64,000 nucleotides of DNA from Curvibacter lanceolatus ATCC 14669 (lineage in GTDB: Bacteria; Pseudomonadota; Gammaproteobacteria; Burkholderiales; Burkholderiaceae_C): positions 1 to 64,000 of the forward strand of contig NZ_KB906275.1 in assembly GCF_000381265.1 (NCBI RefSeq), given 5' to 3'. The notes under the pieces were generated by a model. It ran no database searches and was not told the DNA's origin. It saw nothing but the letters and a program-made list of their open reading frames with translations. The translations under genes were made by a program, and so were the position numbers. How positions within the stretch are numbered: position 1 is the stretch's first letter; every line of letters begins with the position of its first letter. This document shows positions 1-16,115 of this stretch, piece after piece.

Positions 1-293
1 GATGCAGAACGGATACATCGAAAGCTTCAATGGCAAGTTCCGCGACGAGCACCTCAACGAGAGCTGGTTTGAGACCTTGCACCAGGCCAGAACATCCGTG
101 GCCATCTGGCGCACGGACTACAACGAAGTCAGACCACACAGCAGCCTGGGCCGCATACCACCGGCTCGTTTTGCCGAGCTGCATCGCCAGCGCGCTGGCG
201 ATGCAGCTCAACAACCTTCAATTCAAAAACAAATCGATTAACCTTGAACTTGGACTTCCACTTTTGATTGGTACGTCTGTAGGGGGCAGGTCA
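1..293 (+). mobile_element. Right end of an IS3-family insertion sequence (left part outside window)
   Basis: The segment holds the end of an IS3-type transposase followed by a short non-coding tail. It closes at 293 with the element end. Read outward-in on the minus strand this end starts TGACCTGCCCCCTACAGACG, the TGA-initiated terminus typical of IS3-family elements. Beyond 293 the sequence belongs to an unrelated minus-strand gene, whose stop codon is supplied by the terminal TGA. The other IS end and the target duplication lie outside the window, so the subgroup and duplication cannot be checked here. Confidence 0.8.
2..241 (+). CDS. IS3-family transposase OrfB, C-terminal fragment (5' end outside window)
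   Basis: The visible 79 residues carry the last part of the DDE integrase core. The stretch GYIESFNGKFRDEHLNE contains the third catalytic acid, and the NEVRPHSSLG motif typical of IS3 OrfB C-termini follows. The coding frame is open to the window edge, so the gene begins upstream. OrfB is normally made as an OrfAB fusion by frameshifting and cuts and joins the element ends. The stop lies about 50 bp before the IS terminus, as expected. It belongs to a different IS3 subgroup from the decayed transposase near 5750-6170. Confidence 0.85.
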   Translation: MQNGYIESFNGKFRDEHLNESWFETLHQARTSVAIWRTDYNEVRPHSSLGRIPPARFAELHRQRAGDAAQQPSIQKQID

Positions 294-740
294 CTGCAAA
301 TTGACTTTGTCGACGGCGTCGTAAAACGGCTTGTCATAGCCGTTGTCATGGTTGTGAACAAATAGTAGCCCGCGGACTTCATGGGCCTCGCCGTCGTCGA
401 CCGAATATTTGGCTCTCCACGAATCAGAACATCGCGCGCAGTCGATCGTCATGCACAACGACTTGAAAGCGCCCCGTAGTCGTGTCGACGTGATCGAATC
501 TTCTGCGTAACTCTTCAAGTCGGTGTGCAGATACACCGTCTTCCCCAGATACGGGTCTCGGTAGTGAAAGACAACATCGCCCGGATGTGTCCCTTTCGGC
601 TTCCCTCCATCCCCGACGTGCTTTTCGTTCGAGCACTCGAAGTTGTCGTCGGTCTTGGGATGCGTTTTCCAAAGGAAATGCTTGAAGATGTCCCTCGAAA
701 GGCGCGCTGCAATCTCGCCAATGTTTATGGTCTCCGCCAC
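291..740 (-). CDS. Hypothetical nuclease-like protein, 3' end truncated by IS insertion
   Basis: I do not recognise a named family. Translation starts at a GTG preceded by a near-perfect Shine-Dalgarno (AAGGAGGAG, about 2-5 nt spacing), which argues for a real gene. Around residues 53-80 the pattern PGDVVF, then a short insert, then VYLHTDLKSY resembles the acidic and D-x-K motifs of PD-(D/E)XK nucleases; this is inference from pattern only. A CxxC-like pair (C95, then CARC) could bind metal. The last codon before the stop abuts the IS3 end at 293 and the stop itself is the TGA of the IS terminus. The natural C-terminus has therefore been lost and the product may be inactive. It points the same way as the methyltransferase-helicase-AlkB operon, 740 bp downstream of it. 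Confidence 0.6.
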   Translation of the reverse strand: MAETINIGEIAARLSRDIFKHFLWKTHPKTDDNFECSNEKHVGDGGKPKGTHPGDVVFHYRDPYLGKTVYLHTDLKSYAEDSITSTRLRGAFKSLCMTIDCARCSDSWRAKYSVDDGEAHEVRGLLFVHNHDNGYDKPFYDAVDKVNLQ

Positions 741-1480
741 AACTCCTCCTTATTCCACAACTGCGGCTGATCGGAATGCCAGCTACGCCTGTCGTAGATA
801 GTCAAGACAATCTAGCACATCGCCCCGAGCCGTTACATATCAGCAGCCAGGCGACCGCCGTGCTGCCCCTCGCGGGTCCAACATGTCAGGCGCAGGCTCG
901 CCAGAAGGCTCATTCCCCTATGACTGGAACGCGGCGGATACCGCGAGTAGGGTAACCAAGACCGACTGACCGAGATCGCTGCAGAGCCGACATCCACAGT
1001 CGAACGGCGGCTCTAGGCTGGATGCAGACCCTCAGTTTTTTGAGGCTGGGTGTCGGCAACTGCCGATTCCTGTCGTTCAGCGCTCGCTAGGGCGGCCGGC
1101 CGGAGTGCACTGAAACCTGCCAGTCATCCACAGGATTGACGAAGCACGGCAAGGCGGCCGGTCAACGATTGCTCCCTAGCGTGGCGAACAGGCGCTGCCG
1201 ACCCGTTGCAGTCCGTCAGGCAACGACAAGGCGACCATAGACCATCGGATTCCTGGTCTTGATCTTTCAAAGACCGACTCTGGACGGCCCCGGCCAACGG
1301 GAGAAAAACTCTAACGTTCGTTGGCGTTCTGAACGCCTTGTCGCTGAAAGCGCAGGCCCTGGAGGCCGCGGACCGCTTTGGCTACCTGCACGTCTCATTG
1401 GCATCGACGCGATAAAGCCGGACGACTTTCTCGCGAGGCCTCCATCAAAGACGTCTCGTCGGAAGTGACGGATACGAGCC
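741..1480. other. Intergenic stretch without a recognisable gene
   Basis: Only short overlapping open frames on both strands occur here, with no start-site or family support. One T-rich inverted repeat (CTCA, T-rich loop, TGAG near 1031-1044) might act as a weak transcription stop for the minus-strand operon on its right. The rest looks like decayed intergenic DNA of the accessory island. Confidence 0.5.
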
Positions 1481-3751
1481 TCAGCGAAGGCCCTCTGGCG
1501 CATCGGCGTCGACCTTCCTAAAGGTCACCGAAATTCGACGAACCCGAGGCCTCTTGTACTCCGTCTGACGCATAGGAATTTCGTGGAGCCAGCGACTCCG
1601 CGCTTCTCCGGCTAGCAAGGCAACGCTTCGACGAGGGAGTGGCTGAACGAACTTCAAGGTCTCGCCCGGGACCTTGCGCGTGAAGATCATGTCCCAGGTC
1701 TCAAGCAGGCTGATGGTCGCAACTGGTCCACGGAAACAATCGGGACAGTCGATGTGCTTGGATATGCCCTGCGGACCGTCGTAGTTGTTGACGATGACCT
1801 GGTCAGGAACCTCAGGGAAAAGCCCTTCGTCGAAGAGCTTCTGCGCAAGCTCTTCAGCCCACGATGGCAGCGGTCCGAGGTAGTCCTTCTGCGCTATGCC
1901 TCTTGCCTTGTAGTCATACCGCCACCCGTAATGCTGGACGCGTCGCCTCAGCTCCGTACTCCAGTCGCCGGAGTCGATGGCCTCAACGAGCTCAAGCTCT
2001 TGAGAAGCCGAGATGAAGTCCTCGAGCATTTCCAGCCCCGCAGGAGGCGTCTCGACCACGCGCATTGCGGAGGCGCGCTTTGGCTTGTCCACTGAAGCAG
2101 CCTTTTTGTGGCTTGCGTCTGTGAGGTTGCGGCCCTCAGCATCGCCAATCGGGAGTTGAAGGTCAGCCCGAGGCTCCTCGGGGAGGCCTCCGACCGGCGC
2201 TATTTTCGGAAGCTTCGATTTGATGGAAGCAGTAGCCAGCCACTCTTGGAAGCGCTCTACGTCGAGTCGCTCCTCAAACTGCAGGTCACGACCGACCTGC
2301 AAGTCCACGCGTCCCTTGACGGTGAGCTCGCGCTTCTTCGTATCGACAGCAAGGGAGCCGGTCCCGAAGTAAGGAACGGCAGTGTCGACAAGGGTCAGCA
2401 CCGACGAGACTGCCTGGGGAACTGCTTCTCGAGCCAGCAGAAGGGCGCGCTGCCTGACCGCCTCACTGTCGAAATCTGCCTGGTACCACCGTCCACGAGT
2501 ACCAATCTTGTGGGCCAGAAGATGCATAGGACCTGCTTCAATCGAGAACGACTCGCCCCGCATCTGCCAGTCGGCCCGTTCCGGCGCCAACAGCCGCCAT
2601 GGTCCAGACCCGTCAGGCGCCCCGTACTCCCAGGTGCTCAGCGCGACGAACAATCGGCTATCGGGCGTGCCTCTGAACTGCTTTGGCAGAGCACGGAAGC
2701 CCTGCAGGTACCCCGAGAGAATCATCCCTGTCCACCAGGCACCAGGAGGGATAGCTGGGAAGTCCTCACGCCAACTGGCGAACCTCTCTGGAGACGAGCG
2801 AAGCAGCAGCAGTTGGAGGGAAAGTGCGAGGTCGTCGTCGCGTGCGCCGCACTCAGCGACCGTGCCAAGGTCGTTCAGCAGCTTTATCGCGCCGTCATAG
2901 AAGCTTTGCAACCGCTTCGGAGCTTCGTCCAGCGACATCGCTCGGTCGCAGATGGCGGAGAGGACGTTCTTAGGTCGCCATTCCCTGAGCCGGCCGGGCG
3001 CCGAGAACTCCTCAACCGCGGCGCGCCAAAGTCCTGGAAGCGAATTCCGAACTTCCTCCGCCGCTGTCCACGGCGCAGCACGCAACCACGGAACCCTGAG
3101 CCGGTCGGTCAGCTCAGGATGGGCCACCCCGTCTCGAAACCACTGGCAAAGCAGTTCAACCCAGGGGTCGATTGCCGGCACGGCGAAGGCTGCGGTCGCC
3201 GCAGCGCCTCGAAGGGCATCCCAATTCTCTGGAGGCTGCCAACGGACCGACAACTGCGGCTTCTCCGCCGGAGGCTCAACGTGTCGAGACAAGGCGACTT
3301 CGAAAGGCTGGACCGGAACATTGATGTCCGCGAAGCTCCTGGAAAAGGCCAACAGCTTCATGCGAACGTTCTCCGACCCGACGCTGAAGTGATGAACAGC
3401 GAACAGGGGGAGCTGACAGGCCAACGCGACGACGCTGTCGTTTGGCGTCCAACTCCTGGTCGACGCCTCGTGCCACTCACGTCCCCGCCACACCATGACG
3501 GTGGTGGCTGGAAGCCTGGTGGGGTCAAACCAAACGGTGACCGAGTCTGCATCTACTGGCCCGGTTGAGCAGCCGGCGTCGGCCCCGAGCATGAACAGGT
3601 TTCCCTCGGACAGAGGCAACCACTCTTCCGCAAGGAACTTTAGGAAAGCATCCTGGGACATCGTCAACCCTAGCAAAACCTCGGCGCGTTGGTCGTCCTT
3701 AGCTCCGCCTGTTGCGAGCAAGTCAAGTTGGCCGTTGGAGGTTGAGGTCAT
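1481..3751 (-). CDS. AlkB-type 2OG-Fe(II) dioxygenase fused to a large unknown N-terminal region
   Basis: This 756-aa protein ends in an AlkB-fold dioxygenase of about 190 residues. Visible signatures are NNYDGPQGISKHID (iron ligands H666 and D668), the third iron ligand H723 in WLHEIP, and the 2-oxoglutarate-binding arginines in RRISVTFR (R739 and R745). The HxD region and the following ISLLETWDMIF strand resemble ALKBH8-type AlkB proteins more than E. coli AlkB, in my reading. AlkB enzymes oxidatively demethylate nucleic-acid bases or modify RNA. Residues 1 to about 560 match nothing I know; they are tryptophan-rich with no membrane segment or signal peptide. The start overlaps the helicase stop by 4 nt (ATGA), implying translational coupling. 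E. coli AlkB has about 216 residues, so this is a major fusion. Substrate unknown. Confidence 0.85.
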   Translation of the reverse strand: MTSTSNGQLDLLATGGAKDDQRAEVLLGLTMSQDAFLKFLAEEWLPLSEGNLFMLGADAGCSTGPVDADSVTVWFDPTRLPATTVMVWRGREWHEASTRSWTPNDSVVALACQLPLFAVHHFSVGSENVRMKLLAFSRSFADINVPVQPFEVALSRHVEPPAEKPQLSVRWQPPENWDALRGAAATAAFAVPAIDPWVELLCQWFRDGVAHPELTDRLRVPWLRAAPWTAAEEVRNSLPGLWRAAVEEFSAPGRLREWRPKNVLSAICDRAMSLDEAPKRLQSFYDGAIKLLNDLGTVAECGARDDDLALSLQLLLLRSSPERFASWREDFPAIPPGAWWTGMILSGYLQGFRALPKQFRGTPDSRLFVALSTWEYGAPDGSGPWRLLAPERADWQMRGESFSIEAGPMHLLAHKIGTRGRWYQADFDSEAVRQRALLLAREAVPQAVSSVLTLVDTAVPYFGTGSLAVDTKKRELTVKGRVDLQVGRDLQFEERLDVERFQEWLATASIKSKLPKIAPVGGLPEEPRADLQLPIGDAEGRNLTDASHKKAASVDKPKRASAMRVVETPPAGLEMLEDFISASQELELVEAIDSGDWSTELRRRVQHYGWRYDYKARGIAQKDYLGPLPSWAEELAQKLFDEGLFPEVPDQVIVNNYDGPQGISKHIDCPDCFRGPVATISLLETWDMIFTRKVPGETLKFVQPLPRRSVALLAGEARSRWLHEIPMRQTEYKRPRVRRISVTFRKVDADAPEGLR

Positions 3752-4851
3752 CGTTCGAGGAGAGGCGGAGGGGGTAGGGCTGCCAATTGTGCCGCCGAAA
3801 GGGTCACCGGCCCGTTGACAAGAATCAGCGTATCTCGAGCTCGAGAGCAGAGCATGTACATCCGCCGGTAGTCTACGTCCTGCGCCATCGGCAAGGACCG
3901 ATTCAGGTCCTGCAGGAAGACCGTCTCGAACTCCAGTCCTATCGCAGATTGGCCCGAGATGATGGTAACCCCGCGGTCTCGCATCTTGATGGCCTGCTCA
4001 GCACTTGGTTCAGCCTGGCTGGTGTAGTAGTCGACCCGGTCGTTGGGCAGCAACGCGGTCAGAAGTCCGCGGAAGGACGTGATGTGACTCTGCTTGTACA
4101 GAATCACGCCGACCGCCGCGCCGACGTTTTGGTATCGCACCGCCACCCGTTGGGCCAACTCCTGCCAGGTCGCCACTTGCATCAACCGCGGCGCGTCGCC
4201 CGAGCGTCCTCGCTTCGCCGGCGCGTGTGGGACCTTTCCCTTGACATGGAAGGTCGCCACCAGGTCTGCTATCTCCTCGGTGTTGCGATGGTTCAGGGTC
4301 AGCGGAATGGCTGTCTTGTAGCCAGCGCGGAGAAGTTCGCCAACCCGGCACCCATCGACATCCGTGGTCTGGTTTTCATCGGCGAAGACGGACATCTCCT
4401 TGGCAAGGAACCGCTTCGCCCAGATGAAGAACTCGATGGGAAGGTTCTGCCCCTCATCAACAATCAAGTGGTCGACCGATGGCTGTACATCCTCAGCCTC
4501 GTATAACTCCATGATTTCGTCCCACTTGTGGTGGTACTGAGCCTGCGGGATGGGGTACGAAAACTTGTTGCGGTAGTAGTCGTTGGACACGCACTTGTGC
4601 ATGGTGAGGCTCTTCACCGGAGCTCCGCCATGGTCCTTCGAAATTTGGACTGCGAGCGCGGCAAGCATGCGGTTTCGCGTCACGACGACAACGTTCAGGC
4701 CGTAGTTCTCGGCCAGCATCCGTGCTTTCCAGAGCGCGCAAGAGGTCTTGCCGGTGCCCGGTGGGCCTACCACCAAGATGGATTTCAAGGGGTCCTGCAG
4801 GAAAACCCCTTTTTGCTCCTCGGTAAGCTCGGTGAATGACGGCAGCTTCAT
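3748..4851 (-). CDS. Compact superfamily 1 (UvrD/Rep-like) helicase/ATPase
   Basis: The 367-aa protein has the full set of SF1 motifs. These are a Q-motif glutamine (Q13), Walker A GPPGTGKTS with K35, motif Ia near VVVVTRNRM, Walker B LIVDEGQ (D132, E133), motif III in FADENQ, motif IV in LTLNHRN, motif V near IISGQSAIGLEFE, and motif VI in CSRARDTLILV. It is about half the length of UvrD (720 aa) and lacks room for the 1B and 2B insertions, so it is a minimal motor that could use partners for specificity. It begins 2 nt after the methyltransferase stop and overlaps the AlkB-fusion start by 4 nt, so the three are almost certainly one transcript. Unwinding activity is inferred; an ATP-driven switch is equally possible. 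Confidence 0.88.
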   Translation of the reverse strand: MKLPSFTELTEEQKGVFLQDPLKSILVVGPPGTGKTSCALWKARMLAENYGLNVVVVTRNRMLAALAVQISKDHGGAPVKSLTMHKCVSNDYYRNKFSYPIPQAQYHHKWDEIMELYEAEDVQPSVDHLIVDEGQNLPIEFFIWAKRFLAKEMSVFADENQTTDVDGCRVGELLRAGYKTAIPLTLNHRNTEEIADLVATFHVKGKVPHAPAKRGRSGDAPRLMQVATWQELAQRVAVRYQNVGAAVGVILYKQSHITSFRGLLTALLPNDRVDYYTSQAEPSAEQAIKMRDRGVTIISGQSAIGLEFETVFLQDLNRSLPMAQDVDYRRMYMLCSRARDTLILVNGPVTLSAAQLAALPPPPLLER

Positions 4852-4853
4852 CG

Positions 4854-5681
4854 TCAGAACTCTCCCAGTGGAATTTCTCGGCCGCCCAGTCGAACGAACA
4901 GGGCGTAGTGGAGCTTGCGTTCCTTACCTTCGAGGTTAAGCACTTCCTTGTCTTCAATCTTCACGTTGAAGCCCGCCTTGGTCATCGCCTGCTGGAAGGC
5001 CGGGTAGGCCTCGGTCGCCTCCTTGCGAGACGTGTTGGTGTACAGCAGAGCTACCGGCCCGGGACCGATGCGATCGCAGGCATCAACAATCTGCCGCACC
5101 AGCACGTCGACGTCGATGGACTGGCTGGCCAGCAGGTAGGAAAGCACCATGATGGTCCATGTCGACCTCTGCGCACCGAAGTCGATGTCGTCGGTGGACG
5201 AGAAGAACCTGACCGTGGTCTCGGGGCTCAGACCGCCGGCGGCTTTTGCTCCCTCGGCAAGTTCTCCACCGAAGGAGCACATCATCTGGGATGTGTCGAC
5301 GCCGAAGTAGCGGAACGGAGTTGCGTTCCCAACTACCTCCGCCAGCGCCAATCCGGAGGTGAACGGGCCACAGCCGATATCGACCACCGTCGCCCTGTAC
5401 AGGTCTCGGGGGTTGTTCAGCAGCTTCTCGAAGGCATGAACCAGCTCGTTGACATGCGACTTCTGGTTGAAAAAAGCATAGAGCAGGACGCGGTCCCTGG
5501 CGGAAAGAACCCCTATAGGCTCATCGAAGCTCGCTTGCCCGCCGCCGATTGCTTGATTGAAAACCCACGACGTCGGGAGACCAAGCCTGGTATCCGGCTT
5601 CCTCGACTCTCTGGGGTCATCCATGACAGGGTCGACGATGTGCGACCGACGCAAGCTCTCCAACCATTGGCTTCTTGCCAT
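4854..5681 (-). CDS. SAM-dependent methyltransferase, Rossmann fold (Rsm22-like pattern)
   Basis: The 275-aa product has class I methyltransferase motif I as VVDIGCGPFTSG (residues 99-110), motif II at YFGVDTSQMM (about 125-134) and a motif IV-like strand TIMVLSYLL. The motif I/II spacing and the helical N-terminal 90 residues recall the Rsm22-like group, but the substrate cannot be read from sequence. No DNA-methylase catalytic motif (DPPY or PCQ) is visible, so RNA, protein or a small molecule are all possible. The ATG has a clear GAGGTG Shine-Dalgarno about 7 nt upstream. It is the first gene of the operon with the helicase and the AlkB fusion. An AT-rich ATTAATTAACTAAC stretch just upstream may contain the promoter. 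Confidence 0.82.
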   Translation of the reverse strand: MARSQWLESLRRSHIVDPVMDDPRESRKPDTRLGLPTSWVFNQAIGGGQASFDEPIGVLSARDRVLLYAFFNQKSHVNELVHAFEKLLNNPRDLYRATVVDIGCGPFTSGLALAEVVGNATPFRYFGVDTSQMMCSFGGELAEGAKAAGGLSPETTVRFFSSTDDIDFGAQRSTWTIMVLSYLLASQSIDVDVLVRQIVDACDRIGPGPVALLYTNTSRKEATEAYPAFQQAMTKAGFNVKIEDKEVLNLEGKERKLHYALFVRLGGREIPLGEF

Positions 5682-5749
5682 TGTGAAACACCTCGGCCTC
5701 CGCGGGGGCCCGTTAGTTAATTAATGCAGCCACCTCGGCGACCTGACTG

Positions 5750-6170
5750 GCGATATGCCGATATTAGCTTGCCGCGCCTACAGCGCCTTCTCTACCGCTT
5801 CGAGGACAAAGTCGGTGGTCATCGAGCTGCTCACGCGCCAGCCCACGATGCTTCGGACGAACACTTCCATCATGAAGGCCACATACAGCCAGCCCTGCTA
5901 GGTAGAGATGTACGTGAAGTCCGATACCCACGACTGCTTTGGCCGGTCAGCTCGTAACTGCCGGTTCATCGCGTCAGCGGGCAAGGCGCCTTGGCGTCGC
6001 TGGCGGTGGTGAGCACGACCTTGCCACGCTCGACGCCGCGCAGTCCCATGCGGCGCATCTGGCGCTCCACCGTGCCGGCTTATCTGCTTCCAGCGCTTGT
6101 CGTCGCCGTTGACCTGCGGGGCGGCGTTCCAGACTTGCTTGACCACCGGCATCAACGCCTTGGTGGTGTG
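5750..6170 (-). pseudogene. Decayed IS3-family transposase OrfB fragment
   Basis: Minus-strand translation gives recognisable pieces of an IS3 integrase core: NRQLRADRPKQSWVSDFTYIST, then an in-frame TAG, then QGWLYVAFMMEVF and IVGWRVSSSMTTDFVLEA. An upstream part matches only after a frame change. The in-frame stop and frameshift show it is inactive. It differs in subgroup from the element at 1-293. Together they bracket the methyltransferase-helicase-AlkB operon, supporting the view that the block is a mobile or scrap-rich island. Boundaries are approximate. Confidence 0.75.
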
Positions 6171-6597
6171 GGCTTTGTGCGGCGGCCAGTCGTGACGAAA
6201 TTCTGTTGAACTGCCTTGCCCTTGACGAACGGCATTCGGAAACGCCTGCTATGCAGTCTGCGGTTTCATCGACCCACGGACAGCTCAGGGTCGAAAGCGT
6301 TAGGACGCCAATGGAGGGAGCGGTCGTACGAGGTTCCTTTGTCGGCGTTCTGGCTCCCAAAGTTACCTGCGCCTCGATGGGCGGTCATTGATGGAAGCAC
6401 GTCATCGCCGAGTCGATGACTCCGGTGTGGCAGACAGCAGTCATCGATGCCTCCACTGCGAAGGACCGCCCCCTCTGCAAAGCAACCTTCCAACTTGACG
6501 ACCCATCGCCCCGGATGAAGAGAAGGTCACCGGGGTCAGCAGAACCAAGACCGGCAGCCAATCAGGAAAATGCCCGCCGCGCGACGAAGTCCCCCCC
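6171..6597. other. Intergenic remnant between IS fragment and Bug gene
   Basis: No gene with family support is seen. Short frames occur on both strands but none has a plausible ribosome site or conserved motif. The region probably marks the edge between the island and the catabolic backbone, since composition becomes clearly more GC-rich from about 6600 onward. Confidence 0.4.
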
Positions 6598-7599
6598 TCA
6601 ATCAATCCTAGCCCCCGACTCCTTAGCCACCACCCCCCACTTCGTCGTCTCACTGCGAATGAAGCCCACCAACCGTTCCCCCTCCAAATCCCCCGCAGTC
6701 ACCCCCAGCTCTTCAAACCGCCGGGTCACCTCAGCCAGCCCCAGCACCCGGTGCAGAGCTTCACGCAGGCGCTTGCTGATGGCCTGCGGGGTGGCGCGGG
6801 GGGCCATCAGGGCGAACCAGGTGTTGACCTCGTAGCCTTTGACGCCGGCCTCGTCTAGCGTGGGCACGCCGGGGTACAGGGCGGAGCGCTGCAGCGAGGT
6901 GACGGCCAAAGCCCGCACCTTGCCTGAGCGCACGGGTTGCGAGGCGGAGGGGCTGGTTTCGATGGCCATCTGGATCTGGCCGGCCATCAGGTCGCCCATC
7001 ATGGGGGCGCCGCCTTTGTAGGGCACGTGGGTCATGGGGGCGCCGATGCGGGCGCTGAACAGGGCACCCGACAGGTGCTCGGTGCTGCCGGGGCCGGCCG
7101 AGCCGTAGTTGACCTCGCCGGGGTGGGCCTTGATGTAGGCCAGCAGCTCGGGCACCGATTTGACGGGCAGTGAGGGGTGCACCAGCAGCACATTGGGCGT
7201 GGTGGCCACCAGGCCGATGGGCTCGAAATCTTTGATGAAGTCGTACGACAGGTTTTTGTACAGGCCCGGGGCCATGGCGTGGGCCACGGTGGCCATGAAC
7301 AGGGTCTGGCCATCGGCCGGGGCGCGGGCCACGGCGGCGGCGCCCAGGGTGCCGCCGGCGCCGGCGCGGTTGTCGACCACCACGGGCTGGCCCAGGTTCT
7401 CAGACAGCTTTTGGCCGATCACGCGGGCCAGGATGTCGGTGGTGCCGCCGGCGGCAAAGGGCACCACCAGGGTGATGGGGCGGGTGGGCCAGTCGGCCGC
7501 CTGGGCAGCGCCACAGGGGGCAAGTGGGGCCAGGGCGGCCAGCGTGGCCAGCAGGCCGGTTTGCAGCAGGCAACGCCGCGACGTGCGTGTTTGTTTCAT
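6598..7599 (-). CDS. Bug/TctC-family periplasmic solute receptor
   Basis: A 333-aa tripartite tricarboxylate transporter receptor. A signal peptide of about 34 residues ends at AQA-AD; its SRRCLL start could suit Tat export but Sec is possible. The mature part has the family pattern ITLVVPFAAGGTTD, VVVDNRAGAGGT, HVPYKGGAPMM and the usual C-terminal helix pair. Such receptors bind carboxylates (tricarboxylates, aromatic or nicotinic acids) in the periplasm, and many in Burkholderiales are orphans without adjacent membrane subunits, as here. It follows tcuB on the same strand after 93 bp, so its ligand is probably the substrate of TcuAB (tricarballylate or a related acid). No TctA or TctB subunit is in the window. 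Confidence 0.9.
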   Translation of the reverse strand: MKQTRTSRRCLLQTGLLATLAALAPLAPCGAAQAADWPTRPITLVVPFAAGGTTDILARVIGQKLSENLGQPVVVDNRAGAGGTLGAAAVARAPADGQTLFMATVAHAMAPGLYKNLSYDFIKDFEPIGLVATTPNVLLVHPSLPVKSVPELLAYIKAHPGEVNYGSAGPGSTEHLSGALFSARIGAPMTHVPYKGGAPMMGDLMAGQIQMAIETSPSASQPVRSGKVRALAVTSLQRSALYPGVPTLDEAGVKGYEVNTWFALMAPRATPQAISKRLREALHRVLGLAEVTRRFEELGVTAGDLEGERLVGFIRSETTKWGVVAKESGARID

Positions 7600-7692
7600 G
7601 GTGAGGTCTCCGTTAGGTCAATGAGTTGCCTGGCGGCCACGCGCCGCCTCAGGCCACAGGGGCGGCCCGGGCGCAGGCCCGCGGCCGCGGGA

Positions 7693-8856
7693 TCAGTCCG
7701 AACCCAGTTGCAGGCGGCTGGGCTGCCGCTTTTCCACCGCGTTGCGCAGCAGGGCCGCGCTGCGGAACACGCCGTGGGCAAACTTGCCGTAGGGCAAGGT
7801 GGCAAACAAGGCCATCACCGCACCCAGGTGCAGCACCAGCACGCTGGGCAAGGCCGAGGTGGCGCGGGCCAGCAGCAGGCCCAGGCCCGTGGCGGCCACC
7901 AGCCACAGCAGGGCGATGAAGCCCAGGTCCATGGGCTTTTGCGCGGCGTCGCCATGCAGCGGGTGGCGGCGCAGGCGCAGCCAGCCCAGGCCGGTGGTGC
8001 CCGCCAGCAGGGCCAGCCCGCCGCCCACGCCAAACAGCTTGGGCAGGCTGAACCAGCCGTAGGGCGCGGCCTGGCCCAGCCCGTAGTGGTACAGCGTGGC
8101 CAGCGAGGTGGCCGCAAAGCAGGCCATGAAGCCGTAGAAGGTCAGGTGGTGAAAGCGCCGGCGCCAATGGGTGTGGGCGTCATCTTCGTTGTGGCAGCCG
8201 TCGCCGTGGCCGCCGTCCAGGTAGCGCAGGGTCAGGGCCTGTTGGGCAGCCTCCAGGCCGGGGCCGACGCTGGCCGGGGCGCTGCCGGTGCCGGGCCGCA
8301 GCTCGCTCAGAAAGCGCCGCACGCCCAGCCCCAGGGCCAGGGCCGCAAAACAGAACACGGGGGCAAACAAAGACACCAGCAGGTTGTGCGGAAACACGCC
8401 ATAAAAGCCCTGCTCGGGCACCATCCACAGGGTGCCGCGCGCGGCCAGTGCCAGCGCCATGAACAGGGCCAGCCCCAAGGCCAGCGCCACGCACAGGGTC
8501 AAGCCGTTGCGCTGGTACAGGCGCCCCAGGCCGGGCGGCCAGGCGTAGTCGACATAGGTCTGGCCGCGCACCACGGCCATGGCCTGCGGCACGTTGACGG
8601 CAAACTCGTGCGGCGGCGCGTACTGGCAGGCGTGCAGGCAGGCGCCGCAGTTGTGGCACAGGTTGGCCAGAAAGTGCACGTCCACCGGCTCAAAGCTCAG
8701 GCGGCGCGTCATGGCCGGGAAGACGGCACAAAAGCCCTCGCAGTAGCGGCAGGCGTTGCAGATCTGCATCTGGCGGGCCCCCTCAGCCTCGGCCTGTGTG
8801 GGCTCGCCGTTGGCCAGTGCGCGGGCCTGGCGGGTGAGTTCGTCAAGCGTTTGCAT
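7693..8856 (-). CDS. tcuB: Tricarballylate utilization protein TcuB (Fe-S membrane electron carrier)
   Basis: The 387-aa protein has two CxxCxxCxxxC clusters near the N-terminus (C33, C36, C39, C43 and C67, C70, C73, C77), each able to hold a 4Fe-4S centre. About six hydrophobic segments follow from residue 105, with histidines typical of the CitB/TcuB cytochrome-like family. In Salmonella, TcuB reoxidises the flavin of tricarballylate dehydrogenase TcuA and passes electrons to the quinone pool. Its start lies inside the end of tcuA (14-nt overlap), consistent with coupled translation of the two partners. Confidence 0.9.
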
Positions 8857-10270
8857 GGGCGGCCCCTTTCTCGTTTTGCTTTTGTGCCAGGGCGCCCAGG
8901 GCGGCCTGCTGGCCGGCGATGCGCCCGAAGGCGGTGCCGATCGACATGCCCACGCCGGCGGTGTAGCCCTTGCCCAGCACGTTGCCGGCCATCATCTCGC
9001 CGGCCACATACAGGTTGCGGCTGGGCTGGCCGCCAAAGTGGGCGCGGGCCTGCGCGTCCACCTTCAGGCCCAGGTAGGTGAAGGTGATGCCGGGCCGCAG
9101 CGCGTAGCCATAGAAGGGCGGCGTGTCGATGGGCCGGGCCCAGTGGGTTTTGGCGGGGCTCAGGCCCTCGGTGCGGCAGTCGTCCAGCGCGGTGTGGTCA
9201 AAGTGGCCTGGCCGGCAGGCGGCGTTGTAGGCCCCCAGGGTTTGCAGGAAGGTGGCCGGGTCCAGCCCCAGTTGACGGGCCAGGTCTTCCAGCGTGTCGG
9301 CACGTACGCCGGGGAACACCGGTGGCATGAAGCGGCCCACGGCCTTGGCGTCGATGATCGAGTAGCCGATCTGCCCCGGCTGCTGGGCCACCAGGCGGCC
9401 CCAGATGGCGTAGCGCTTGGGCCAGAAGTCTTCGCCCTCGTCATAAAAGCGCTGGCCGAGCTGGTTCACCACCACCCCCAGGCTCACGCAGTCGATGCGG
9501 GTGCAGATGCCGCCGTCGTACAGCGGGGCGCGCGCGTCAATGGCCACGCAGTGCGACTGCGAGGGGTCGCCCACCATGTCGGCGCCCTGCTCGTCTTGCA
9601 GGTGCTTGAGCAGCACGCCGCGGTTGAAACGCGTGCCACGGATCAGAAAGTTGTCGGCCGGCCAGCTGCCGTCGGGGTTCTGGCCCCAGGCCTCGCGCAG
9701 CCATTCGCGGTTCGATTCAAAGCCGCCGGCTGCCAGCACGCAGGCCCGGGCCGTGATGCGCTGGCCGCCCTGCCAGGCGGCCACAAAGCGGCCGTCTTCC
9801 AGCTCCAGCCGCTCCACCGGGGCTTCGTAGCGGATCTGCACGCCCAGCTTCTCGGCGCTGCGGTAGTAGGCGTTCACCAAGGCCTTGCCGCCGCCCATGA
9901 AGAAGGCATTGGTGCGGGCCACGTGCAGCGCCCCCGACAGCGGCGGCTGAAAATGCACGCCATGCGAGCGCATCCAGTCGCGGCAGTTGGATGAGGCGCG
10001 GATGGTCAGGCGCGCCAGCGCCTCGTTGGTGATGCCCCCGGTGACCTTGAGCAGGTCTTGCCAGTACTCTTCTTCAGGGTAGGCGTCGACCAGCACATCC
10101 TGCGGGGCATCGTGCATGCAGCGCAGGTTGCGGGTGTGGGCCGAGTTGCCGCCGCGCCAGGCGCGCGGTGCGGCTTCGAGCAAAAGCACACTGGCCCCTG
10201 CTTCGCGTGCCATCAATGCGGCACACAGGGCGGCGTTGCCGCCACCGATGACCAGGACGTCCAGGTCCAT
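8843..10270 (-). CDS. tcuA: FAD-dependent tricarballylate dehydrogenase TcuA
   Basis: The 475-aa flavoprotein begins with a dinucleotide-binding motif [20 protein letters not shown] and ends with a typical fumarate-reductase/succinate-dehydrogenase flavoprotein C-terminus ([16 protein letters not shown], then [12 protein letters not shown]-like segment). TcuA oxidises tricarballylate to cis-aconitate, which enters the citric acid cycle. Pairing with tcuB and an upstream LysR gene matches the known tcuRABC layout, except that the TcuC permease is absent and a Bug receptor sits downstream. A different polycarboxylate substrate remains possible. Confidence 0.88.
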
Positions 10271-10408
10271 GGCTGTCTCCTTGCAAAACGGTCGCTTGCG
10301 CGATGAGTTGCCACTTTAGGAAGACAGCGCCCTGCCGTGCAGGCCCCGGCGGGCATGGGGCCATCAGTTTTTGTGATGGGTGGGGGGGTCTTGAGCTCAA
10401 AAGAGCGC

Positions 10409-11365
10409 TCAAAGCGCCAGTGTGGCGCCCACCCACAGGCCCTGCTGCACCAGTTGGCGCACACAGTCGGCCAGCACCACGCGGGTGGCCAGGGCCACGG
10501 GCGAGAGCTCGTCTTCGGCCAGGCTGCACAGCAGGTTCACGCGGCACACGGCCGGGCCGGTGATGCGCGCCAGCTCAAAGCGCTCGGCCGCATCGGCAAA
10601 GCGGCCCACCGCGGCCCAGGGCTGCAGGGTGGCGCCCAGGCCGGCGTCCACCGCGGCCATCAGCATCGAGAGCGAATCCACCTCCAGCACCACGTTCGGG
10701 CTGACGCGGGCCTGGGCAAAGGCGGTGTCCAGGGTGCTGCGCAGGCCGTGCGGGCCGGTGGGCAGGATCAGGCCGATGTCGCCCAGCTCGGCCAGGCCCA
10801 TCTCGGCGGGCAGGGCCGGGCGGCCGGCCCGGGGGCCGCCGCGGATCAGAAACAGGGCCTCTTCGATCAGGGGCTGGATCTGCCAGCGGCGCCCGCCGGG
10901 GCCGTCGCCATTGGCGTACAGGCGCGAATCGAACAGCACCGCCAGATCGAGCTGGCGGGCATTGAGCATGCCGGCCAGGTGGCCCGACAGGCTCTCGACC
11001 ATGTGCAGGCGCACCTCGGGGTAGCGCTCGCGCATGGCGCGCATCAGGGGCAGGCCCAGCAGCGCCGCCGTGGTGGGGGCCAGGCCCACGCTGACGGTGC
11101 CCGACAGCCGTGCCTGCTGGGCCACGCGCACGGCCTGGTCAGCGTGGCGCAGGGTCAGCTGGGCCTCGCGAAAAAAGGCCAGGCCGGCCTCGGTGGCCTG
11201 CACGCCGCGCGGGCTGCGCTGCAGCAGGCGGGTGCACAGCTCGCCCTCCAGCCGGCTGATCTGCTGGCTCAGGGCCGACTGCACCAGGTTCAGGTCGAGT
11301 GCCGCGCGCCCCATCGAGCCCAGTTCCACCACGCGCACAAAGTAGCGCAGCTGTCTCAATTCCAT
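10409..11365 (-). CDS. tcuR: LysR-family regulator, probably TcuR-like
   Basis: The 318-aa protein has an N-terminal winged helix (MELRQLRYFVRVVELGSM..., helix-turn-helix about residues 18-60) and a LysR co-inducer domain beginning near GTVSVGLAPTTAALLG. It lies 138 bp upstream of tcuA on the same strand and is the natural regulator of the operon, as TcuR is in Salmonella. The family call is firm; the assignment to tcu is from position. Codirectional rather than divergent placement is a little unusual for a LysR regulator. Confidence 0.85.
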   Translation of the reverse strand: MELRQLRYFVRVVELGSMGRAALDLNLVQSALSQQISRLEGELCTRLLQRSPRGVQATEAGLAFFREAQLTLRHADQAVRVAQQARLSGTVSVGLAPTTAALLGLPLMRAMRERYPEVRLHMVESLSGHLAGMLNARQLDLAVLFDSRLYANGDGPGGRRWQIQPLIEEALFLIRGGPRAGRPALPAEMGLAELGDIGLILPTGPHGLRSTLDTAFAQARVSPNVVLEVDSLSMLMAAVDAGLGATLQPWAAVGRFADAAERFELARITGPAVCRVNLLCSLAEDELSPVALATRVVLADCVRQLVQQGLWVGATLAL

Positions 11366-11591
11366 CTTGGGTCTTTCGGTTGGGTGGGCCGGTCGGGCCG
11401 CCGGCTCGGCTGCGAATATAGCGTGTGGGCCAGCCCTGGGGCTGGCGGGGCGGGCCCGCTTGGGTGCGGGTGAATGCGCTGAAGCATGGGCTCAAGAGTG
11501 CGACAGCAAGGGCGCTGTTTTCAGTTACGCTCAAGCCCGCCCGCGGCCCCGCTTGCCGGGGCTTTTTCTCAGACACCACCGCCTGCCCTCC
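11366..11591. other. Divergent intergenic region between the LysR and TetR genes
   Basis: The two regulators are transcribed away from each other, so both promoters should lie here. The frame of the TetR gene is open through this stretch, but its translation lacks any family similarity, so I treat it as non-coding. No clear operator was recognised. Confidence 0.4.
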
Positions 11592-12248
11592 GTGCCAAGC
11601 CAGCCCCCTGCCCCGGCGCCCGAACTGCGCAAATACCGCCCCTCAGCCAAACGCGATGCGCTGCGCGCCGAACTGCGCGACCGCCTGAAGGCCCAGGCCT
11701 GGCAGGTGTTTGCCGAGGTGGGGCTGGACGGGGCCACGGTGGCCGCCATCGTGGCGGGCAGCGGCGCCTCGAACGGCACCTTCTACAACTACTTCGGCAC
11801 CCAGCAGGCCGTGTTTGCAGAGCTGCTGGGCGAGCTGCTGGGCGAGATCCGCAGCGCCACGCGCGAGGCGCGCCAGAGCGAGCCCGAGCTGGTGGGGATG
11901 ATGGTGCAGTCGTTCCGGGCCTTCTTTGAGCTGGTGCTGCAACGGCCCGGGGCCACCGATTTCTGCCTGCGCAACCAGCACCACATCCGCGCCTACCTGC
12001 ATGGCTTTGCCGACACCAATGGCCTGCTGGACGATCTGCGCGCCGACCTGCGCCGCGCCCTGCCCAACAAAGGCCTGAGCGATGGCGAGCTGGCCTTGCT
12101 GGCCTCGGTGGTGGTGGCCATCGGCCTGGAGGCGCTGATGCTGATGAGCCGGGGCGACCCGGTCGATCTGGAGGGGCTGTGCCAGGGCGTGGCCACCTTG
12201 ATTGCCCACGGCGCCAGCCAGTGGCCGGGCTGCCGAACAAATATTTGA
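11592..12248 (+). CDS. TetR/AcrR-family transcriptional regulator
   Basis: From the GTG chosen here the product is 218 aa. The TetR DNA-binding domain is plain: helix-turn-helix GATVAAIVAGSGASNGTFYNYF near residues 40-62, followed by a helical ligand domain. The open frame extends 75 codons upstream to 11367 but that part has no TetR similarity. The GTG gives a normal TetR length, yet it lacks a clear ribosome site, so the start is uncertain. It precedes the GMC/aldehyde dehydrogenase operon by 48 bp on the same strand. A perfect palindrome overlaps its stop codon and is a candidate operator. The likely inducer is the alcohol or aldehyde handled downstream. Confidence 0.85.
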   Translation: MPSQPPAPAPELRKYRPSAKRDALRAELRDRLKAQAWQVFAEVGLDGATVAAIVAGSGASNGTFYNYFGTQQAVFAELLGELLGEIRSATREARQSEPELVGMMVQSFRAFFELVLQRPGATDFCLRNQHHIRAYLHGFADTNGLLDDLRADLRRALPNKGLSDGELALLASVVVAIGLEALMLMSRGDPVDLEGLCQGVATLIAHGASQWPGCRTNI

Positions 12249-12261
12249 CGAATTCGTCAAA
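12244..12261. promoter_or_regulatory. 18-bp perfect palindrome, candidate TetR operator
   Basis: TTTGACGAATTCGTCAAA is a perfect two-fold repeat. It overlaps the tetR stop codon (12246-12248) and lies 36 bp before the GMC start codon. Size, symmetry and place fit an operator for a TetR dimer controlling the downstream pair. No run of T follows, so a terminator is less likely. Confidence 0.6.
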
Positions 12262-12296
12262 AATCCTAAACTGCGCACTCCTACACGGAGACAAAC

Positions 12297-13928
12297 ATGG
12301 CGCAGACCACCCCCAACACCACATCGCTTCAGGCTGACTACATCGTGGTCGGCGCCGGCCCGGCCGGCAGCGCGCTGGCCACCCGGCTGGCCGAAGGCGA
12401 CCCCGCAGCCCAGGTGCTGCTGATCGAAGCCGGGCCGGCCAAGCCCTCGTTTCTGTCGGTGATGCCGGCCGGCCTGGCCCTGCTGGTGCCCAGCCGCAAC
12501 CGCCACAACTACGCCTACCAGACCGTGCCCCAGGCCGGCCTGGGCGGGCGCACGGGCTATGTGCCGCGCGGGCGCGGCCTGGGCGGCTCCAGCCTGATCA
12601 ACGCCATGATCTACGTGCGCGGCCAGCGCGAAGACTACGACGGCTGGGCCGCCCTGGGCTGCCCGGGTTGGGGCTGGTCCGATGTGCTGCCCTTCTTCCG
12701 CCGCAGCGAGGCCAACCAGCGCCCGGGCGGCCTGGACGAGGCCCTGCACGGCCGCCAGGGCCCGCTGGTGGTGAGCGACCTGGCCTCGCCCAGCCCCGTG
12801 AGCCAGGCCTTTGTGGCCGCCGCCCAGGCCTGCGGCCTGCCGGCCAATGCCGACTTCAACGGCGCCCGGCAAGAGGGCGTGGGCCTGTACCAGGTGTTTC
12901 AGCAAGGGGGCCGGCGCCTGGATGCCTCGCGCGCCTACCGGGGCCGGGCCCCGCAGCCCAACCTGCAGGTGCTGGCCGAGGTGCGCGTGAACCGCGTGTG
13001 CTTCGAGGGGCGCCGCGCCACCGGGGTGGAGGTGGCCGACCGCGACGGGGTGCGCGTGCTGACGGCCCGCCGCGAAGTGATCCTGAGCGCCGGGGCCATT
13101 GCCTCGCCCCAGTTGCTGTGCCTGTCGGGCATCGGGCCGGCCGACGAGCTGGCCCGCCTGGGCATCCCCCTGGTGGCCGATGCGCCGCAGGTGGGGCAAA
13201 ACCTGCAAGACCACCTCGACTACTCGCTGAACCTGCGGCTCAACGGCCCGGGCCTGTTCGGCTGGGGGCCGCGGGGCACGCTGCGCTCGCTGGCGGCCCT
13301 GCCGGCCTTCCGCCAGGGCCGTGGATTTTTGACCACCAACGGGGCCGAGGCGGGCGGCTTTGTGCGCAGCTCGCCCCAGTTGGAGCGGCCCGACCTGCAA
13401 CTGCATTTCTGCGTGAGCAATGTGGACGACCACGGCCGCCGCAAGCACCTGGCCACCGGGGTGGCGCTGCATGTGTGCGCACTGCGCCCGCACAGCCGCG
13501 GCTCGGTGCGCCTGGCCAGCGCCAACCCGGCCGACATGCCCTTGATCGACCCGGCCTTTCTGTCGCACCCCGACGACCTGCCGCTGCTGATCCAGGGGGT
13601 GCGCCTGGCGCGGCGCATTCTGCGCAGCCCGCCCTTCGCCGGCCTGGGCGGGCGGCCGATCTATGGCACGCTGGACGACGAGAGCGACGACGCGCTGGCG
13701 GCCCTGATCCGGGCCCAGTCCGACACCATCTACCACCCGGTAGGCACCTGCCGCATGGGCACCGACCCCGCCTCGGTGCTGGACCCGGCCCTGCGGGTGC
13801 GCGGCGTGAGCGGCCTGCGCGTGGCCGACGCCTCCATCATGCCCACCCTGGTCAGCGGCAACACCCAGGCCCCCAGCGCCATGATCGGCGAACGGGCCGC
13901 CGACCTGATCCTGAAAGGCCGGGCATGA
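12297..13928 (+). CDS. GMC-family FAD alcohol dehydrogenase (choline dehydrogenase-like)
   Basis: The 543-aa product has the FAD-binding GAGPAGSALATRL near residue 19-31, GMC signature 1 around PRGRGLGGSSLINAM, signature 2 around ILSAGAIASPQLL, and the catalytic histidine in YHPVGTCRMG with the C-terminal VSGNTQAPSAMIGERAA. Members oxidise primary alcohols (choline, medium-chain alcohols, polyethylene glycol) to aldehydes with a membrane-linked acceptor. The stop overlaps the aldehyde dehydrogenase start by 4 nt, so alcohol-to-acid oxidation in two coupled steps is the likely role. The substrate is not evident; a short SD-like ACGGAG precedes the ATG. Confidence 0.92.
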   Translation: MAQTTPNTTSLQADYIVVGAGPAGSALATRLAEGDPAAQVLLIEAGPAKPSFLSVMPAGLALLVPSRNRHNYAYQTVPQAGLGGRTGYVPRGRGLGGSSLINAMIYVRGQREDYDGWAALGCPGWGWSDVLPFFRRSEANQRPGGLDEALHGRQGPLVVSDLASPSPVSQAFVAAAQACGLPANADFNGARQEGVGLYQVFQQGGRRLDASRAYRGRAPQPNLQVLAEVRVNRVCFEGRRATGVEVADRDGVRVLTARREVILSAGAIASPQLLCLSGIGPADELARLGIPLVADAPQVGQNLQDHLDYSLNLRLNGPGLFGWGPRGTLRSLAALPAFRQGRGFLTTNGAEAGGFVRSSPQLERPDLQLHFCVSNVDDHGRRKHLATGVALHVCALRPHSRGSVRLASANPADMPLIDPAFLSHPDDLPLLIQGVRLARRILRSPPFAGLGGRPIYGTLDDESDDALAALIRAQSDTIYHPVGTCRMGTDPASVLDPALRVRGVSGLRVADASIMPTLVSGNTQAPSAMIGERAADLILKGRA

Positions 13929-15313
13929 CCCTCGACACCTTGTTCATGCGCCAGCACGAGGCCTCGCGGCGCCAGCCGGCCCCCGACCTGCAGGCGCGGC
14001 GCGCCTCGCTGCTGCGGCTGGAGCAACTCGTCAGCCGCAACGCCGAGGCCCTGATCAGCGCCATCGACCATGATTTTGGCGGCCGCTCCCGCACCGAGAC
14101 CGAGCTGCTGGAGATGCTGCCCACACTGCGCGCACTGCGCCACGCGCGGGCCCATGTGGGCCGCTGGATGCGCCCCCGGCGCCAGGCGGTGGAGTGGCTG
14201 TTCCTGCCCGGGCGCAACCAGCTGCGCCACGAGCCCCTGGGCGTGATCGGCATCATGGCGCCCTGGAACTACCCGCTGCTGCTGACGCTGGGGCCGCTGT
14301 GCGACGCCCTGGCGGCGGGCAACCGGGCCTTGCTCAAGCCCTCGGAGCTGACGCCGGCGTTTTCAGACCTGCTGCAGCGGCTCATTGCCGAGGCCTTTGA
14401 CCCGGCCGAGGTGGCCGTGGCCACCGGCGGGGGGGAGGGGGGCCAGGCCTTTGCCAGCCTGCCGTTCGACCACCTGGTGTTCACCGGCTCGACCGCCGTG
14501 GGCCGCAAGGTGATGCAGGCCGCCGCCGCCAACCTGACCCCCGTGACGCTGGAGCTGGGCGGCAAGTCGCCCGCCATCGTGGCCCCTGATCACGCGATCG
14601 ACGCCGCGGCGCGCTCGATCGCCTTCGGCAAGTTCGTCAACGCGGGGCAGACCTGCATCGCCCCCGACTACGCCCTGGTGCCGGCCCACCAGCTGGAGGC
14701 CTTTGCCAACGCCGTGCTGCAACACGCCCGCCGCACCCTGCCCGACCCGGGCCGCAACCCCGACTACAGCGCCATCATCAGCCCCGCCCACCGCGCCCGC
14801 CTGCATGCCCTGCTGGACGAGGCCCGGGCCAGCGGCGCCCGCGTGCTGAGCAGCGCCGAGCTGCCGCGCGACGACCCGCATGTGGCCCCCACCGTGGTGC
14901 TGGCCCCCGGGCAGCACCTGCGGCTGATGCAGGAGGAGATCTTTGGCCCCATCCTGCCCATCGTGCCCTACCAGACCCTGGACGAGGCCCTGGCCCTGGT
15001 GGCCCGCCACGAACGCCCGCTGGCCCTGTACCTGTTCACCCACCAGGGCAGCACGCGCCAGCAGGTGCTGGCCGCGGCCCCCTCGGGCGGCGTGACGCTG
15101 AACGGCACCTTGCTGCACATTGCCCAGCACAGCCTGCCCTTTGGCGGCATCGGCCCCAGCGGCACCGGCGCCTACCACGGCCACGCCGGCTTTCTGCGCT
15201 TCAGCCACGCGCGTGGGGTGCACCAGGTGGGCCCCATCAACCCCTTTGAAACCCTGGGGCCGCCCTGGGGGCGCTTGGCGCGCTGGATGGGGCGCTGGCA
15301 GCGGGGTGGGTGA
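13925..15313 (+). CDS. NAD(P)-dependent aldehyde dehydrogenase (coniferyl aldehyde dehydrogenase-like)
   Basis: Starting at the ATG that overlaps the GMC stop, the product is 462 aa. The open frame runs on upstream for 419 codons, but that part is the antisense-free shadow of the GMC gene. Catalytic residues are C244 in FVNAGQTC and E210 in LELGGKSP, with the cofactor region IMAPWNYPLLL. The missing N-terminal extension and the hydrophobic/basic C-terminal tail (PPWGRLARWMGRW) resemble CalB/fatty aldehyde dehydrogenases of class 3. It should oxidise the aldehyde made by the GMC enzyme to an acid. Confidence 0.92.
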   Translation: MTLDTLFMRQHEASRRQPAPDLQARRASLLRLEQLVSRNAEALISAIDHDFGGRSRTETELLEMLPTLRALRHARAHVGRWMRPRRQAVEWLFLPGRNQLRHEPLGVIGIMAPWNYPLLLTLGPLCDALAAGNRALLKPSELTPAFSDLLQRLIAEAFDPAEVAVATGGGEGGQAFASLPFDHLVFTGSTAVGRKVMQAAAANLTPVTLELGGKSPAIVAPDHAIDAAARSIAFGKFVNAGQTCIAPDYALVPAHQLEAFANAVLQHARRTLPDPGRNPDYSAIISPAHRARLHALLDEARASGARVLSSAELPRDDPHVAPTVVLAPGQHLRLMQEEIFGPILPIVPYQTLDEALALVARHERPLALYLFTHQGSTRQQVLAAAPSGGVTLNGTLLHIAQHSLPFGGIGPSGTGAYHGHAGFLRFSHARGVHQVGPINPFETLGPPWGRLARWMGRWQRGG

Positions 15314-15350
15314 CGGGCACCGACGCGCCCAGCGCCAGGCCACGCGCTGA

Positions 15351-16115
15351 TCAACCCAGCACAAAGCGCTCCAGCAGCGCGGCAAAGGCCTGCGGCTGCT
15401 CCACCGCACTCAGGTGGGCTGCGTTCAGGCTTTGCAGCTGCGCTCCCGGGATGGCTTGCGCGATGGCCTCGGACAAGGCCGGGGGCGTGGCCTCATCGCG
15501 CTCGCCCGCGATGACGAGTGCGGGGCAGGTGATGGTGCGATTGCCTTCGTCCAAGGCGATGTGGGCCACGGCCAGGCAGGCCTCGGCATACGGGGCGGGC
15601 TGGGTGCCGACCAGCACCTGACGCAGGGCCGCCACCCGCTCGCGCCCCAGGCTGTCGGCGCGGAACTCGGGCGTGAACCAGCGCTGCAGGGCGCCGTCGG
15701 CAATCACCTCCATGCCGCGTTCCCGCACGGTGTCGACCCGGGTCTGCCACAGGGCTCTGGCCGCCTCGCCGTACTGGCTGGCCGAGTTCGCAATGCAGAC
15801 CGAACGCACTGTGCCAGGGTGGCGCGCTGCCAGGGCCTGCGCCGTCATGCCCCCCATCGAAAGGCCGACAAAGTGCACCGGCCCGCTGGCGTGCTGCGCG
15901 ATGAACTGCGCCGCATCATCGGCCAGATCGTCCATGCTGAAAGGCCCCGGCAGGGCGGGCGAGCGACCGTGCCCGCGGTGGTCATAGCGCAGCACGGTGA
16001 AGCGCTGTTGCAGGCATTGGGCGAGTTCGTCCCACATCGTCAGGTCGCAACCCAAGGCATGGCTCAGCACGATTTCGGGGCCGCGGCCCTGGCGGACAAA
16101 GTGAAAGGAAGGCAT
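15351..16115 (-). CDS. pcaD: 3-oxoadipate enol-lactonase
   Basis: From the ATG giving MPSFHFVRQG the product is 254 aa, the usual PcaD length; the frame is open 33 codons further upstream but without similarity. It has an alpha/beta-hydrolase fold with the nucleophile S86 in VGLSMGGM, an oxyanion strand LSHALGCDLTMW, an acid in GERDEATPP and a terminal histidine in NAAHLSAVEQP. The enzyme hydrolyses 3-oxoadipate enol-lactone to 3-oxoadipate, the step after CatC. It lies beside catR and the catBCA operon on the opposite strand. Confidence 0.88.
   Translation of the reverse strand: MPSFHFVRQGRGPEIVLSHALGCDLTMWDELAQCLQQRFTVLRYDHRGHGRSPALPGPFSMDDLADDAAQFIAQHASGPVHFVGLSMGGMTAQALAARHPGTVRSVCIANSASQYGEAARALWQTRVDTVRERGMEVIADGALQRWFTPEFRADSLGRERVAALRQVLVGTQPAPYAEACLAVAHIALDEGNRTITCPALVIAGERDEATPPALSEAIAQAIPGAQLQSLNAAHLSAVEQPQAFAALLERFVLG

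Follow-up and report, generated by a model that had tools for sequence, protein, structure and literature searches.

Human ALKBH8 unites an AlkB-type dioxygenase with a methyltransferase, and one group of bacterial AlkB proteins is ALKBH8-like without RNA-binding, zinc or methyltransferase domains, according to the available excerpts of a 2014 paper (PMC4051686). Helicases and a methylase are joined in DISARM, ARMADA and other defence systems containing YprA helicases, as described in the accessible part of PMC12458937. Here we describe a three-gene operon of Curvibacter lanceolatus ATCC 14669, located in a window (the whole stretch of DNA analysed) of 64,000 nucleotides (nt) that covers positions 1 to 64,000 of contig NZ_KB906275.1. 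The operon encodes a predicted S-adenosylmethionine (SAM) methyltransferase, a superfamily 1 (SF1) helicase and an ALKBH8-like dioxygenase fused to a large N-terminal domain (N-domain). The parts are known; new is the joining of a helicase and an undescribed domain to an ALKBH8-like methyltransferase-AlkB pair in accessory bacterial DNA. Judged from gene order among relatives, the pairing of this AlkB class with a methyltransferase appears to be general and to use unrelated methyltransferases, and the two enzymes are probably coupled. The operon comprises the following features, with lengths in amino acids (aa).

4854..5681, minus strand: class I SAM methyltransferase P0003, 275 aa, first gene of the operon (open reading frame)
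3748..4851, minus strand: SF1/UvrD-type helicase P0002, 367 aa (open reading frame; Pfam and PADLOC helicase matches)
1481..3751, minus strand: fusion protein P0001, 756 aa, N-domain plus ALKBH8-like dioxygenase (open reading frame; structure model)
2192..3751, minus strand: N-domain of P0001, residues 1-520, without a Pfam family (structure model; profile matches)
1484..2071, minus strand: ALKBH8-like AlkB domain of P0001, residues 561-756 (profile of six AlkB domains against the PDB)

Each open reading frame begins with ATG, and the coordinates give a gap of 2 nt between the methyltransferase and helicase genes and a 4-nt ATGA overlap between the helicase and fusion genes, in agreement with the tight packing described in the original prediction. 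No promoter-like sites were found, and terminator-like sites were rarer than in shuffled sequence.

The sole Pfam match of P0001 above cut-off is 2OG-FeII_Oxy_2 (AlkB; 1.1e-14, residues 610-745), which bears out the 756-aa AlkB-type fusion that had been proposed. AlkB is likewise the only Pfam domain in 30 of 30 fusion members, RNA-binding and zinc domains being undetected in them by Pfam. Residues H666, D668, H723, R739 and R745, which we take to be the Fe(II) and 2-oxoglutarate ligands, are kept in all 30 rows of the alignment. When a profile of six AlkB domains was compared with the PDB, human ALKBH8 was the best match (4.1e-41, 144 bits), E. coli AlkB reaching at most 38 bits, and ALKBH8 and ALKBH6 chains stood on top among the Foldseek matches listed for P0001. 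By these comparisons, the dioxygenase domain is ALKBH8-like and not E. coli-like. The operon resembles ALKBH8, the closest solved relative of its AlkB domain and a eukaryotic enzyme with hydroxylase and methyltransferase activity on the tRNA wobble uridine, in coupling an AlkB domain to a SAM methyltransferase. In contrast to ALKBH8, the methyltransferase is encoded separately and belongs to a different family, a helicase and the N-domain are added, and the AlkB protein carries no RNA-binding or zinc domain detected by Pfam. The N-domain, of about 520 aa, is a separate conserved domain that has not been described previously. In the structure model of P0001 (predicted local distance difference test score, pLDDT, 86.9), it is folded from about residue 23 and is followed by a low-confidence, disordered linker (residues 521-560) and then the AlkB domain. 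Among the listed matches of each fold search, hits appeared to fall on the AlkB part. P0001 had no match in PADLOC up to E 1, and its search against viral contigs yielded nothing.

The class I fold of the P0003 model (pLDDT 93.5; Foldseek) agrees with the SAM methyltransferase originally assigned to the first gene, all Pfam matches being below threshold (Methyltransf_25 at 0.032). Among the matches listed, the top query-normalised template modelling score (0.56) belongs to chain 7 of human mitochondrial small-subunit assembly intermediates, presumably METTL17. D101, G103 and G105, which we regard as the SAM-motif residues, are kept in 32 of 32 methyltransferase rows, and the DNA methylase motif [DNS]PP[YFW] occurs in none of these 32 members of the P0003 family. 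The PADLOC profile C3a159, named 'methyl transferase', matches P0003 at 2.6e-6 and all 35 methyltransferases submitted. P0003 alone as a query found no useful relatives among genome contigs, and a first methyltransferase alignment recovered only the window's own copy from 398 same-phylum genomes. Viral contigs yielded nothing to that alignment, nor to a degenerate DNA pattern of the methyltransferase motif.

P0002 matches AAA_19 (1.3e-6) and further helicase families in Pfam, only weak and generic helicases in PADLOC, and a HelD-like chain in the PDB (1.8e-5). The motif residues scored in the alignment, which we assume to be catalytic, are retained in 29-30 of 30 rows. On this evidence, gene 2 is predicted to be a complete SF1 helicase, in keeping with the SF1 assignment of the earlier analysis.

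On four plasmids, genes for a DrmA-type helicase and DUF1998/DrmB precede a helicase of the gene-2 family, the PADLOC check of DrmA and DrmB covering one of them. Arrays of a DrmA-type helicase, DUF1998/DrmB, a gene-2-type helicase and a protein of about 470-580 aa were observed at L012:7065-14831, L013:6874-14845 and L014:2734-10464 (Photobacterium and Deinococcus plasmids; L numbers denote loci), and this last protein had no PADLOC match. Its comparison with the N-domain gave an hhalign probability of 46%. In hmmsearch, the N-domain scored 7e-4, 1.8 and no hit against three such proteins (best reversed decoy, 0.05), and the reverse search gave 0.023 (best decoy, 0.27). This possible likeness between the N-domain and the post-helicase protein is a weak lead only.

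The recurrence of the unit was surveyed by scanning one genome per species with an alignment of six AlkB domains, which gave 501 relatives, of which the best 80 loci were analysed. Profiles found the methyltransferase family in 34 loci, and the helicase and the N-domain in 32 each. All three families stand together in 29 of the 80, more than expected by chance; the homologues are not scattered, and the gene set recurs in unrelated genomes: 27 loci have the window's order, and L046 and L092 have the methyltransferase last. By recorded labels, the 29 loci span about seven phyla, although many of these records are metagenome bins, and individual labels could be in error. The holders of the complete set include Burkholderiales, Pseudomonas, Defluviicoccus and other proteobacteria, Synechococcus, Bdellovibrionales, Vicinamibacterales and other Acidobacteria, Entotheonella, Gemmatimonadetes and Enhygromyxa; among the environmental relatives with the operon are Rugamonas aquatica (L020), Pseudomonas sp. 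MF4836 (L021) and Variovorax sp. E3 (L022). Because flanking genes are common to L034 and L048, to L046 and L092 and to L025 and L035, the number of independent contexts is below 29; no further neighbour family was found in more than two loci. One gene is split between frames in three of the 29 (helicase in L026, fusion in L040 and methyltransferase in L048), and in 26 of 30 loci a fusion start codon is present that overlaps the helicase stop by 4 nt. Pairwise protein distances of the three genes correlate at 0.87, 0.88 and 0.92, values reached by none of 2000 permutations, in 26 sets (the window plus 25; L026, L040, L048 and L074 are each absent from one alignment). Within the family of the window's organism, the operon is rare and patchy: P0001 matched six of 299 genomes, namely its own and five others in the AlkB region alone (27-33% identity), and in the 298 other genomes the search gave no match beyond that region.

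Beyond the three-gene unit, a methyltransferase lies in the same gene array as the AlkB in 58 of the 80 loci, made up of the P0003 family (34), a BMT5-like family (23) and an Eco57I-type DNA methylase (1). The other 22 loci include contigs that are cut short and AlkBs for which no partner was recognised. Apart from the 29 complete units, the P0003 family stands directly upstream of an unfused AlkB in L056, L067, L075 and L085 and is fused to AlkB in L084, the single such fusion. The BMT5-like methyltransferase stands upstream of a lone AlkB in 23 of the 44 loci without operon genes (among them L036, L042, L055 and L066), mostly Alphaproteobacteria by recorded labels, and is split over two frames in L050, L060 and L080. 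It was named by Pfam in the three members scanned (1e-28 to 3e-33), and the rest were assigned using a profile derived from twelve of these 23 loci, so that eleven are independent of it. These pairs share with the operon the AlkB class and the immediately upstream position of the methyltransferase, but their methyltransferase family is unrelated to P0003 and they have neither helicase nor N-domain. The two families never occur together at one of the 80 loci. Since methyltransferases of unrelated families accompany this AlkB class in the 58 arrays, they name the likely maker of its substrate.

In a FastTree phylogeny with a midpoint root, one clade (support 0.95) unites the operon AlkBs with those of L031, L049 and L091. 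A second (0.87) groups the unfused AlkBs paired with P0003-type methyltransferases with two unpaired AlkBs and one viral AlkB, and the BMT5-paired AlkBs are scattered through the remainder. That one AlkB class meets the P0003 family in two clades and another family elsewhere is the best sign that the AlkB may act on the methyltransferase product. In L031 (Vicinamibacterales; 1466-10651), a single same-strand array encodes the Eco57I-type methylase, a UvrD-type helicase, DarT, an ADP-ribosylglycohydrolase and an N-domain-AlkB fusion; its AlkB falls within the operon clade, next to that of L029, and thus partners seem to have been exchanged.

Other arrangements were observed around AlkBs of this class. 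A possible third methyltransferase type, seen by eye, lies beside the AlkB of L090; it has no Pfam match and is left out of the counts. In L075:5473-10585 (Mucilaginibacter), a helicase of the gene-2 family, a 594-aa protein, an N-terminally extended methyltransferase and the AlkB are four genes, and sequence comparisons found no link between the 594-aa protein and the N-domain. A protein of about 153-164 aa stands directly upstream of lone AlkBs in L063 (8604-10555), L052 and L008, and the gene before it in L063 resembles, by eye, a phage head protein.

The operon sits near the edge of contig 23 in a genome of 6.83 Mb, in a setting that includes two neighbouring features outside the unit.

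1..298, plus strand: end of a multi-copy insertion element at the contig edge (four 100% copies elsewhere)
291..740, minus strand: 149-aa fragment of a GapS4a/Hp1-type defence gene (library matches)

The low guanine-cytosine content noted earlier for this region is evident, at 0.55-0.64 across positions 1-7000 against 0.695-0.735 across 7001-16000. IS3 remnants had been proposed on both sides. On the left, the contig begins inside a repeat that is 100% identical over 274-298 bases to four other places in the genome; this element, presumably of the IS3 family, stands as a multi-copy repeat. On the right, the search yielded no more than a match of 57 bases (79%) to three other positions and a peptide match of 22 residues, and an insertion sequence there is unconfirmed. 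The supposed nuclease-like neighbour proves to be a truncated member of a defence family, matching PADLOC Hp1 at 6.8e-40 and NCBIfam GapS4a at 3.9e-8, the latter under its cut-off. It abuts the left element and ends there, and a genome search found no further piece of its family. Another copy of the left element, on contig 48 of the same genome (L104), adjoins a 424-codon open frame.

Three Picosynechococcus plasmids carry a related module, in which a kinase/WYL protein is followed by a methyltransferase homologous to that of the operon (phmmer, about 1e-8) and an ALKBH8-like AlkB. The kinase/WYL protein stands in place of the helicase and N-domain, and no link between this kinase and the N-domain was found. 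Two of these modules lie beside CRISPR RAMP genes (one annotated as type III-B), and one lies beside a reverse transcriptase, an Abi gene and a restriction endonuclease. Around the operons (130 of 154 picked neighbour proteins, from 26 of 30 loci), 122 defence families were matched at 1e-10, counting families and not proteins; those listed include LmuA/LmuB, type I restriction-modification, GajB, reverse transcriptase and DrmD. At the same threshold, the neighbours of control AlkBs without the operon genes (130 of 227 picked) matched 33 families, AbiE, SoFic and IetA being among those listed. Ten neighbours scanned singly against PADLOC gave LmuA (L020), a PD-T4-6-like kinase (L022) and a weak mad3 (L024), and seven had no match. 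Furthermore, ALKBH8-like AlkBs were found on 23 IMG/VR contigs, 22 of them from one search and L134 from a second, which otherwise gave four of the contigs found before. One of these, L134, classed as viral, carries the complete operon. On the other 22 (L112-L133), neither methyltransferase family was seen beside the AlkB in the fetched flanks, although L113, L114 and L116 offer less than 700 bases upstream, where a partner could be missed.

No named system was found to account for the set, as originally supposed: PADLOC 2.0.0 gave no match to the unit's proteins beyond the weak generic helicases and C3a159, and literature searches, one of them swamped by unrelated matches, turned up no paper describing the three genes together. 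The operon shares with DISARM and ARMADA the combination of helicase and methylase, and with plasmid DrmA-DrmB arrays the gene-2 helicase family. AlkB was not seen in those systems, and the word does not occur in the available portion of PMC12458937. Membership in DISARM was rejected, as one DrmA and one DrmB query gave no phmmer hit against the 279 open reading frames of the window, and neither gene was found in the 80 relative loci. Restriction-modification was likewise rejected, given the missing [DNS]PP[YFW] motif and the lack of any Pfam nuclease family in the three proteins.

Based on these comparisons, we tentatively favour, at somewhat less than even confidence, a system that couples the writing and the oxidation of nucleic-acid methylation, with the helicase as loader; it would be accessory and mobile, and perhaps anti-phage. 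The predicted methyltransferase would methylate RNA or single-stranded DNA, and the helicase and the N-domain could open or track this target and place the ALKBH8-type dioxygenase there. The dioxygenase would then oxidise the methyl group written by its partner on the same target, the simplest outcome being erasure, so that a writer and an eraser may lie in one operon. Methylation might harm or mark an invader, and the eraser could protect the host. Removal is preferred over hypermodification because the BMT5-like partner family is named in Pfam for rRNA uridine-N3 methylation, and AlkB oxidation chemistry should release such an N-methyl group. The accessory, perhaps anti-phage, role is suggested by the setting and rarity of the operon. 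An elaborated form of this proposal is unlikely, namely an unnamed class of immunity by reversible nucleic-acid methylation, in which the methyltransferase would attack or mark invading RNA or single-stranded DNA, the helicase and N-domain would deliver an ALKBH8-type dioxygenase that removes the mark from self, and some viruses would answer with stand-alone ALKBH8-type erasers.

Several observations weigh against the favoured proposal. The 58 methyltransferase-AlkB loci are not 58 independent events because they are partly related, and no BMT5-like partner was found for 21 of the 44 AlkBs without operon genes. The predicted methyltransferase and AlkB may act on different targets. The defence role first suggested is putative: defence-family matches lie near several copies, but also near control AlkBs, and no excess over the controls was established from the 25 families listed for each. 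Neither P0001 nor a plasmid AlkB had a match in an annotated phage collection, which makes a common phage counter-measure less likely. In the excerpts of PMC4051686, tRNA-Gly(UCC) was unaltered in an Agrobacterium mutant of the bacterial ALKBH8, and the R. etli ALKBH8-type protein repaired DNA well, two other bacterial members showing lower or negligible activity.

Sequential hypermodification as in eukaryotic ALKBH8, in which AlkB would hydroxylate a methyltransferase-made intermediate to a stable mark on tRNA, other RNA or DNA, perhaps for nuclease protection and with no erasure, is rather unlikely. The ALKBH8-like AlkB class, the joined activities of the human protein and the methyltransferase-AlkB fusion of L084 speak for it. 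However, the operon methyltransferases differ in family from that which we assume for ALKBH8, the BMT5-like partner suggests an N-methyl group that is removable by AlkB oxidation, and the unchanged tRNA of the Agrobacterium mutant also disagrees with it. We consider it quite unlikely that the methyltransferase alone poisons host RNA or DNA and is neutralised by AlkB, infection upsetting this balance to give abortive defence. The writer/eraser layout of the operon would suit such a toxin and antidote, as would the same fusion protein in L031 beside DarT and ADP-ribosylglycohydrolase, presumably a base modifier and its remover with the logic that we ascribe to DarTG; the chemistry differs, and the DarT pair lies outside the window's operon. 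On the other hand, the survey was anchored on AlkB and hence covered methyltransferases next to AlkB only, and the split methyltransferase and open AlkB fusion of L048 neither prove nor exclude an antidote role. Alkylation repair of DNA or RNA by AlkB with helicase aid, the methyltransferase having a separate function, is very unlikely and was rejected in its E. coli-type form as the main role, for although one bacterial ALKBH8-type protein equalled E. coli AlkB on etheno-damaged phage (same excerpts) and AlkBs without a recognised partner exist, the bit scores place this AlkB nearer ALKBH8, the two other bacterial members had low or negligible activity, and the pairing with two unrelated methyltransferase families is left unexplained.

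Expressing the methyltransferase-AlkB pair offers a direct test of what bacterial ALKBH8-type enzymes do. Should the operon serve in defence, coupling a helicase to the writing and oxidation of methyl marks would be a mode of fighting phages that was not found described in the literature searches. If immunity by reversible methylation is true, varied methyltransferase families would plug into one dioxygenase, and prokaryotic conflict systems would include relatives of the methyltransferase-AlkB partnership seen in human ALKBH8.

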